A model generated the notes under the pieces. The model ran no database searches. It was not told where the DNA came from and saw nothing but the letters and a program-made list of their open reading frames with translations. From Acidobacteriota bacterium (GTDB lineage Bacteria > Acidobacteriota > Vicinamibacteria > Vicinamibacterales > UBA8438), in assembly GCA_026706755.1 (NCBI GenBank), contig JAPOYG010000224.1:1-44016 (forward strand): 44,016 nucleotides of DNA, written 5' to 3'. Below are positions 37,470 to 39,212 of this stretch, piece after piece (position 1 is the first letter of the stretch; each line of letters starts with the position of its first letter). The position numbers and the translations under genes were made by a program.

Positions 37470-38599
37470 CCCGGCCCGGCGGACTCGAGGGCGTGGTCGC
37501 GACCTCGTCGGCGATCTGCCACATCGACGGCGAACGCGGCGTGCTGGCCTACTGCGGCTTCGACATCCACGACCTGGCGCGGGAAGCCACCTTCGAGGAG
37601 GTGGCGTACCTCCTGTGGCACCGGCGGCTGCCGTCGCGGGCCGAGCTCGGCGACCTGCGTTCGGCCCTCGCCGCGGCGCGCCGGTTGGAGGAGCCCTTCC
37701 TGCGGCATCTCCGCTCCTTCCCGCCCGCCGAGGCGATGGACTCGCTGCGCACGCTCGTCTCCCTGCTGGCGCACTACGACGCCGATGCGGGCGATCGCTC
37801 GCCGGAGGCGGCGTACCGGACCGCCGTGCGCCTCACTGCGCAGGTGGGCAGCGTCGTCGCCGCGTGCGGTCGTCTGGCGGCCGGGGGGGGCCTGATCGAT
37901 CCCGATCCGGGGCTGTCGCACGCCGCCAACTTCCTGTTGATGCTGACCGGCGACCGTCCGTCGGCGGAAGCGGCCCGGGCATTCGACGTGGCGCTCATCC
38001 TGCACGCCGACCACGAGCTCAACGCCTCGACGTTCGCGTCGCGCGTGACCGCGGCGACCCTCAGCGACGTCCACTCCGCGGTGGTGTCGGGCATCGGGAC
38101 GCTGAAGGGGCCGCTGCACGGCGGCGCCAACGCCGAGGTCATGAAGCTGCTGCTGTCCCTCGGCGAGGATGCCGACGACGGACGCGTCGACCGCGTGGTG
38201 CGGGGCATGCTGGCCGACAAGAAGAAGGTCCCCGGATTCGGGCACCGCGTCTACCGCACCGAGGACCCTCGGGCGACGCACCTCCGGCGGATGTCGGAGC
38301 GGCTCGGCGAGCGGACCGGCCGGACGCGCTGGTTCGCCATCTCGCGGCGGATCGAGGAGATCATGCGGGCGGAGCGCAGCATCGACGCCAACGTCGACTT
38401 CTACTCGGCGTCGACCTACCACCTGCTGGGGATTCCGATCGAGCTCTTCACGCCGGTCTTCGCCGTGAGCCGCGTGGCGGGCTGGACCGCTCACGTCCTC
38501 GAGCAGTACGCCAACAACCGGCTCATCCGCCCCCGCGCGGAGTACGTCGGGCCGGAGTACCCGCAGGCCCACGTGCCGCTCGCCGACCGGGCGCCCTGA
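37466..38599 (+). CDS. Citrate synthase (type II short form; citrate or 2-methylcitrate synthase)
   Basis: The enzyme condenses an acyl-CoA with oxaloacetate; acetyl-CoA gives citrate for the TCA cycle, propionyl-CoA gives 2-methylcitrate. The 377-residue protein carries the full catalytic triad: His218 (PLHGGANAEVM), His260 (PGFGHRVYRTEDPR) and Asp311 (NVDFYS), plus ILHADHELNASTFASR (178-193). GTG at 37466 overlaps the glycosyltransferase stop (GTGA) and starts the expected N-terminal GLEGVVATSSAICHIDGE region. Substrate choice between citrate and methylcitrate cannot be settled here; no prp genes are nearby. Confidence 0.94.
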   Translation: MTRPGGLEGVVATSSAICHIDGERGVLAYCGFDIHDLAREATFEEVAYLLWHRRLPSRAELGDLRSALAAARRLEEPFLRHLRSFPPAEAMDSLRTLVSLLAHYDADAGDRSPEAAYRTAVRLTAQVGSVVAACGRLAAGGGLIDPDPGLSHAANFLLMLTGDRPSAEAARAFDVALILHADHELNASTFASRVTAATLSDVHSAVVSGIGTLKGPLHGGANAEVMKLLLSLGEDADDGRVDRVVRGMLADKKKVPGFGHRVYRTEDPRATHLRRMSERLGERTGRTRWFAISRRIEEIMRAERSIDANVDFYSASTYHLLGIPIELFTPVFAVSRVAGWTAHVLEQYANNRLIRPRAEYVGPEYPQAHVPLADRAP

Positions 38600-38600
38600 C

Positions 38601-38684
38601 GGGCGCCTTGGGAGTTTCGCTTCGGGAACTCCTGGGCTTGGCGGGCGCCTTGGGTTTCGCACGGCGAAACTCCTGCGCCCGTCT
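38601..38684. repeat. Two tandem 42-bp units, each with a hairpin, after the citrate synthase gene
   Basis: GGGCGCCTTGGG occurs at 38601-38612 and again at 38643-38654, so the units are 42 bp apart. Each contains a hairpin: GGAGTTTC (38611-38618) with GGAACTCC (38625-38632), and GTTTCGC (38654-38660) with GCGAAAC (38664-38670). Both units then read ACTCCTG. The element directly follows the citrate synthase stop and may end transcription. It shares the AACTCCTGG end with the palindrome at 7216-7269. Confidence 0.65.
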
Positions 38685-38723
38685 CGCCGAAGGAGGGCGC
38701 GCCCCGGCCGACGGGTTCTCTCC

Positions 38724-38755
38724 TATAATGATGGGGCCGCAGGTTGCAGAAGGAG
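38724..38755 (+). promoter_or_regulatory. -10 box and ribosome site of the DUF411 selenoprotein gene
   Basis: TATAAT (38724-38729) is a perfect -10 box and stands out in this GC-rich sequence; no good -35 hexamer is seen. AAGGAG (38750-38755) is a strong ribosome site 7 nt before the ATG at 38763. These fix the start upstream of the in-frame TGA and show that expression signals are intact. Confidence 0.75.
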
Positions 38756-38762
38756 TGACGGC

Positions 38763-39212
38763 ATGCGCACCGCGATTCTCGCCACCGTTCTCGGGTTGAC
38801 CGGGGCGGGCCTCCTCGTCCCGGGCACCGCCGCCGAGGAGCCTGTCGTCGAGGTGTACAAGACGCCGACCTGAGGCTGCTGCACCAAGTGGGTGGTTCAC
38901 CTGCAACAGCACGGGCTCGAGGTCAATGCAACGGATGTACGGAGCGTGGTCGGTCTCAAGCAGCGCGTCGGCCTGCCGCGCCGCCTGGGGTCGTGCCACA
39001 CCGCAATCGTCGACGGCTACGTCGTCGAGGGCCATGTTCCGGCCGCCGACGTGAAGCGCCTGCTCGCGGAGCGCCCCGACATCGTCGGCCTGGCCGTGCC
39101 CGGCATGCCGGCCGGCTCGCCCGGCATGGAAGGCCCGCCCCCCGTCGCCTACAACGTCTACGCGTTCGACGAAGCGGGCAACATCGAGGTCTTCTCGTCG
39201 CACGGTCCGTGA
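38763..39212 (+). CDS. Exported DUF411 metal-binding protein, candidate selenoprotein with in-frame TGA (Sec37)
   Basis: DUF411 proteins are small exported metal-binding (often copper-linked) proteins with a conserved TCGCC motif. The frame runs from ATG 38763 to the stop at 39212, 149 residues, interrupted only by TGA at 38871-38873 (codon 37). Before it is a signal peptide (residues 1-24, ending GTAA) and VEVYKTPT; after it [14 protein letters not shown], then [18 protein letters not shown] (Cys78, His79, His91) and [13 protein letters not shown], all standard DUF411 sequence. The TGA therefore replaces the first cysteine of TCGCC, leaving Cys39 and Cys40. A SECIS-like hairpin follows directly. 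TGA is an ordinary stop in neighbouring genes, so the code is not altered. Selenocysteine insertion is inferred; a point mutation TGC to TGA or a base-call error is the alternative. Confidence 0.85.
38875..38910 (+). promoter_or_regulatory. Candidate bacterial SECIS element
   Basis: Starting 1 nt after the TGA, GCTGCTGCA (38875-38883) pairs with TGCAACAGC (38902-38910), eight of nine positions. Inside, either GTG (38888-38890) pairs with CAC around a loop starting GGT, or GGTG (38891-38894) pairs with CACC (38898-38901) around GTT. Both put a G at the start of the apical loop 17-21 nt after the TGA, which agrees with the general bacterial SECIS pattern (loop 16-37 nt downstream, G among its first two bases). 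Binding by SelB is inferred. Confidence 0.65.

Follow-up and report, generated by a model that had tools for sequence, protein, structure and literature searches.

The window, a 44,016-nucleotide stretch of contig JAPOYG010000224.1 from an Acidobacteriota bacterium of the order Vicinamibacterales, carries a DUF411/CopG gene whose reading frame runs from an ATG at 38763 to a TGA at 39210-39212 and is open apart from a single TGA at 38871-38873 (Table 1). When that TGA is taken as one residue, the gene yields a 149-residue protein with the motif TPT-U-GCC. This product matches PF04214 (DUF411) at 98.8 bits against a Pfam cut-off of 27, and phmmer aligns it with the DUF411 protein of PDB entries 6wis/6wje at E 3e-32. 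The alignment to 6wis retains the CxCC motif (with U for its first Cys) and the methionine copper ligands, and it places the in-frame TGA at the first Cys of the CopG CxCC motif.

Reviews assign the structure 6WIS to CopG, which acts in copper resistance in the periplasm and contains a thioredoxin-like domain (PMC7558416; PMC8456105). In Pseudomonas aeruginosa, CopG holds a tetranuclear copper cluster through the CxCC motif and two methionines (PMC7558416, PMC8456105), and it has been proposed to oxidize Cu(I) and pass copper on (PMC7558416). Likeness of the window gene to CopG/CutG (DUF411, PF04214; 6WIS, 6WJE) extends over the whole length and includes CxCC, SCHT, and GMPxGSPGM with its methionines; the difference lies in the UGA codon, predicted to specify selenocysteine (Sec), at the first CxCC cysteine. 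Judging from its translated N-terminus, the product is probably periplasmic.

Table 1. Features at and around the in-frame TGA, in window coordinates.
Feature	Position	Strand	Remarks
Shine-Dalgarno-like AAGGAG	38750..38755	+	7 bases 5' of the ATG; read from sequence
DUF411/CopG gene (predicted selenoprotein)	38763..39212	+	149 codons plus TGA stop; in-frame TGA is codon 37
Probable signal peptide	38763..38834	+	inferred from the translated sequence
Predicted Sec-UGA codon	38871..38873	+	U of the U-G-C-C motif; TGA/Cys alternation in homologues
Outer 5' arm of first-pass annotation, GCTGCTGCA	38875..38883	+	not a conserved part of the putative SECIS
Putative SECIS core 5' arm, GUGGGUG	38888..38894	+	pairs with 38898-38904; register i+j=52; -8.0 kcal/mol
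Putative SECIS apical loop, GUU	38895..38897	+	21 nt after the UGA
Putative SECIS core 3' arm, CACCUGC	38898..38904	+	covariation as for 5' arm; CTA/CTG bias at Leu codon
Outer 3' arm of first-pass annotation, TGCAACAGC	38902..38910	+	not a conserved part of the putative SECIS; overlaps core 3' arm

The gene lies between an upstream citrate-synthase-like frame (assigned by eye; the frame submitted to Pfam gave no match) and LepA downstream, and no copper-gene neighbor was seen in the window. Some TGA-bearing homologues adjoin genes for multicopper oxidases, cupredoxins, or HMA-type (heavy-metal) ATPases, which fits the copper-handling role of CopG. Between the citrate-synthase-like frame and the DUF411 gene, two copies of TGRCGGGCGCCTTGGG lie 42 bp apart (38597-38690); these copies have inverted repeats and could form stems, possibly as a terminator or attenuator, though they are without a T run. 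A promoter and terminator scan found nothing, and Rfam reported no RNA family at the hairpin locus and a tRNA elsewhere.

Conservation of the in-frame TGA and the selenocysteine machinery

The in-frame TGA is a recurrent feature of DUF411 genes. Among 162 genomes of the order, 91 had a DUF411 match over threshold, and the best match was interrupted by the same TGA in 42 of these 91; one of the 42 (G038) also has a TAA in the matched stretch. Within the family to which the window's genome belongs, the TGA form occurs in 24 of 25 genomes, with one Cys exception (L038). Base-by-base reading of 70 order-level homologues gave TGA, TGC, or TGT at this codon in every one, with no other residue at the site. 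A scan of 84,980 species genomes with the DNA pattern P-T-TGA-G-C-C-x-x-W returned at least 117 loci, and by blastp 117 of 118 pattern sites were DUF411 homologues among the matches listed; L224, a chance pattern match, was set aside as non-DUF411. The record names of the pattern matches span Acidobacteria, Gemmatimonadota, Chloroflexi, Rokubacteria, Methylomirabilota, Tectomicrobia, and Beta-, Gamma-, and Deltaproteobacteria. One match (L208, CAMAYE010000013.1) is titled a Bordetella parapertussis metagenome-assembled genome (MAG), and its gene is nearly identical to environmental burkholderialean ones; the species name is probably a mislabel.

Sequence change beyond the TGA shows that the downstream part of the gene is translated and under selection at the protein level, since differences concentrate on third codon positions: copies in two genomes of the same genus are 87-95% identical and differ 3' of the TGA at 1/2/10 and 6/4/25 sites (codon positions 1/2/3). 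A quick tree of 125 rows required eight Sec/Cys changes, three of them forced by well-supported branches, on a topology that is poorly resolved. Two TGA-bearing DUF411 genes occur on one betaproteobacterial contig (L180, JACPTJ010000216.1) and likewise in one genome (L133/L167, JAUXMZ01), so that the putative Sec form is duplicated in places.

Both Rfam and ARAGORN detect a tRNA-Sec in the window's genome (G000), which also contains SelA and SelD. No selB was found in its contigs, and an assembly gap probably explains this: in the same-genus genome G002, the left flank of the selB region aligns with the terminal part of G000 contig C251, reaching to within 93 bases of the contig's end, and the right flank aligns with G000 contig C515 through to its final base, so that selB would lie in the piece missing between the two. 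The selB synteny is likewise broken at contig ends in G001, and full selB genes are present in G002 and G003, both of the same genus as the window's genome. SelB scored over the cut-off in 33 of the order's 42 TGA genomes; the nine remaining ones comprise six with a completeness of 83% or less, two gap cases, and one with a selB fragment. Among 20 genomes chosen from the wide scan, 17 contained SelB. However, 33 of 49 genomes carrying the Cys form have SelB as well (Fisher p 0.25 against the TGA genomes), so its co-occurrence agrees with a Sec reading and does not discriminate. One in-frame TGA, as in Sec-containing SelD, is present in the selD gene of another genome (L101, G052); SelD of G000-G002 is without a TGA.

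Could the UGA be read through as something other than Sec? Cysteine or another amino acid, inserted by a suppressor tRNA or through leaky termination, would match the Cys found at the homologous position; we nevertheless regard this as very unlikely given the tRNA-Sec, SelA, and SelD in this genome and, downstream of the UGA, a covarying G(G/U)-loop hairpin, which is what SelB recognizes. Genome-wide reassignment of UGA was rejected: neighboring genes, and the DUF411 gene itself, end in TGA.

A covarying stem-loop downstream of the UGA

The 17-nt inner hairpin GUGGGUG-GUU-CACCUGC (ensemble frequency 0.95 in a 24-nt context) is real and is very likely the core of a bacterial SECIS. Published bSECIS constraints comprise an apical loop of 3-9 nt, an upper stem of 4-16 bp, a G at loop position 1 or 2 with G or U as the usual next base, a UGA-to-loop distance of 16-37 nt, and a free energy of at most -7.5 kcal/mol (PMC13188914). 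The hairpin falls within these ranges with its 7-bp stem, GUU loop (G38895 U38896), 21-nt spacing, and an energy of -8.0 kcal/mol, just past the limit. In these respects, and in lying in-frame just 3' of the UGA, it resembles the bSECIS of the Escherichia coli fdhF type (PMC13188914); it differs in having a GUU triloop of its own sequence and in a stem register that varies among lineages of the DUF411 gene family. The first-pass annotation had described an apical loop that starts with G and contains U, 17-21 nt after the TGA, which agrees with the loop found here.

Covariation points to the same stem. We compared 125 TGA homologues, 72 TGA representatives (<72% identity), and 28 Cys homologues, numbering the T of the TGA as 1, so that the inner stem comprises pairs 18-34 to 24-28. 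Register i+j=52 had the largest Watson-Crick excess of 26 registers in the TGA homologues (z 6.3, n=125; z 5.0 in the 72 representatives, both values being inflated by relatedness), whereas the Cys homologues, a small set (n=28) taken only from this order, had no pairing excess at this register. Pairs above shuffles were 24-28 and 22-30 (each as G-C and A-U), 18-34, and 17-35; at pair 24-28, a silent Val base (GTG/GTA) is coupled to a His/Tyr change. The pattern scan partly fixed bases 1-12 and 19-23, which did not create the excess at 24-28, 18-34, and 17-35. The conservation of pairing among TGA-bearing homologues that the first-pass annotation had named as a check is thus clear, and it belongs to the inner stem.

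Codon usage supports a SECIS as well. A G(G/U) loop closed by 7 or more contiguous bp occurs in 68 of 125 TGA genes, against 14.4±3.3 (maximum 25) in 200 synonymous shuffles, in which codons were permuted within each gene and the protein left unchanged, and against only 1 of 28 Cys genes. The loop codon (38895-38897) starts with GG or GT in 38/72 TGA representatives versus 0/28 Cys genes, with GGT and GTT over-used in TGA genes. The RNA thus appears to have altered the protein, favoring Gly/Val over Glu/Lys at this site. The CTA/CTG bias at the 3'-arm Leu codon is in line with its pairing to the invariant U in the Trp codon.

Total folding energy no better than that of synonymous shuffles, an outcome that the first-pass annotation had said would refute the hairpin, is what this sequence gives when taken alone: the 45-nt fold has z 0.04 against dinucleotide shuffles and z +0.15 against synonymous shuffles. 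TGA and Cys homologues are also alike in folding energy (p 0.19), and the best bSECIS-like hairpin by energy gives weak contrast. Because GC-rich sequence folds strongly here by default, total energy is uninformative, and position-specific tests were used instead. A fold no better than shuffles is also what a true stop would allow, with the gene a pseudogene or the TGA a sequencing error and the hairpin present by chance. That reading is extremely improbable in view of the same TGA in 125 distinct homologues of many lineages, the third-position-biased change after it, and the covarying stem.

A different layout had been proposed in the first-pass annotation, which placed the SECIS directly after the TGA as an extended hairpin over 38875-38910, made of nine-base arms and an inner stem. 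A SECIS behind a Sec-UGA is strongly supported, but its core is very likely the inner stem rather than the outer arms. Those arms exist as described, beginning one base after the TGA with eight of nine positions paired (the mismatch is 38879 C/38906 A), and they pair 9/9 in a same-genus relative (L011/L228). However, arms with at least 8/9 positions paired are found in only 5 of 125 TGA homologues and in 7 of 28 Cys homologues, and the inner hairpin takes three bases of the outer 3' arm, so that the two cannot both form in full and pairing of the arms would cost the covarying core three of its base pairs. Moreover, the decoding ribosome covers mRNA 1 nt downstream of the UGA, the stretch where the arms start. 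The arms are better explained as a by-product of coding, since CTGCAGCA(C/G) arises from Leu-Gln-Gln/Glu-His codons opposite two fixed Cys codons. Codon choices such as CTG CAA CAG CAC had been thought to keep the arms paired, yet the mismatch base is the A of CAA, a codon used for 18 of the 26 Gln residues at this site in TGA homologues versus a 32% background (p 1e-4), a preference opposite to what keeping the outer arm paired would favor. Overall, we consider it very unlikely that the long hairpin is the SECIS.

The putative SECIS core is not uniform across the family. Loops lie mostly 15-21 nt after the TGA, with a 7-nt GGUC-type loop at 17 nt in several close genera; in Parendozoicomonas the loop, also at 17 nt, is a GGU triloop. 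About 40 of the 125 TGA homologues, many of them from Anaerolineae and others from one acidobacterial family, have no contiguous stem of at least 5 bp of the G(G/U)-loop type, and these would need other SECIS shapes. Among the TGA genes of one acidobacterial family (L047, L055, L134, L190, and others), several are without such a stem and have in common CCTGG...CC(A/G)GG around an 11-nt loop (positions 17-21/33-37), which may be a distinct SECIS shape. In one divergent homologue (L045, G047:C22), GPG-U-PCC replaces SPT-U-GCC and the stem is kept as GUGGGUG-AAG-CACCUGC.

A predicted selenoprotein form of CopG

Taken together, our data make us confident that the UGA in this DUF411/CopG mRNA encodes Sec, that 38888-38904 is the SECIS core, and that the gene would specify a periplasmic CopG whose motif reads U-G-C-C instead of C-G-C-C. 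The 7-bp stem and GUU loop would bring SelB, GTP, and Sec-tRNA(Sec) to a ribosome halted at the UGA, which would then be read as Sec. The substitution would fall on the first Cys of the tetranuclear-copper-cluster motif, a presumed copper ligand, and in the handling of Cu(I) and Cu(II) Sec would probably act both as a ligand to the metal and as a redox group. From the established chemistry of Sec, its presence at the first Cys position should bring a lower pKa, a lower redox potential, and tighter binding of soft metals. At a guess, it might aid copper chemistry or reactivation after oxidation.

This family is absent from the published selenoprotein catalogs consulted. A 2026 compilation of 119 prokaryotic selenoprotein families (PMC13188914) does not list DUF411, CopG, or PF04214, nor do the families newly described in the deep-Sep paper (PMC12013277) include them, and NCBIfam has no selenoprotein model for DUF411/CopG. 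A search of openly accessible papers found no mention of DUF411 together with selenocysteine. Catalogued small selenoproteins (DUF1573 UGC, SelW-like, and UGC-containing TlpA) likewise have one Sec where a redox or metal-binding Cys would otherwise stand, but they belong to families other than DUF411/CopG.

On balance, we favor the view that CopG is a widespread uncatalogued selenoprotein family in which Sec ligates a polynuclear copper cluster, an encoded Cu-Se site in periplasmic copper defense that has been gained or lost several times. This would bring a protein whose structure and copper cluster are already known into the selenoproteins, and Sec/Cys exchange would then offer a direct test of what Se does at a copper-thiolate site. 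The SECIS register shifts among lineages of one gene also provide natural variants for working out the requirements of SelB. Furthermore, since UGA resembles a stop, TGA-bearing DUF411 genes have likely been annotated as truncated or missed, and many environmental genomes may carry more copper-resistance genes than their annotations show.
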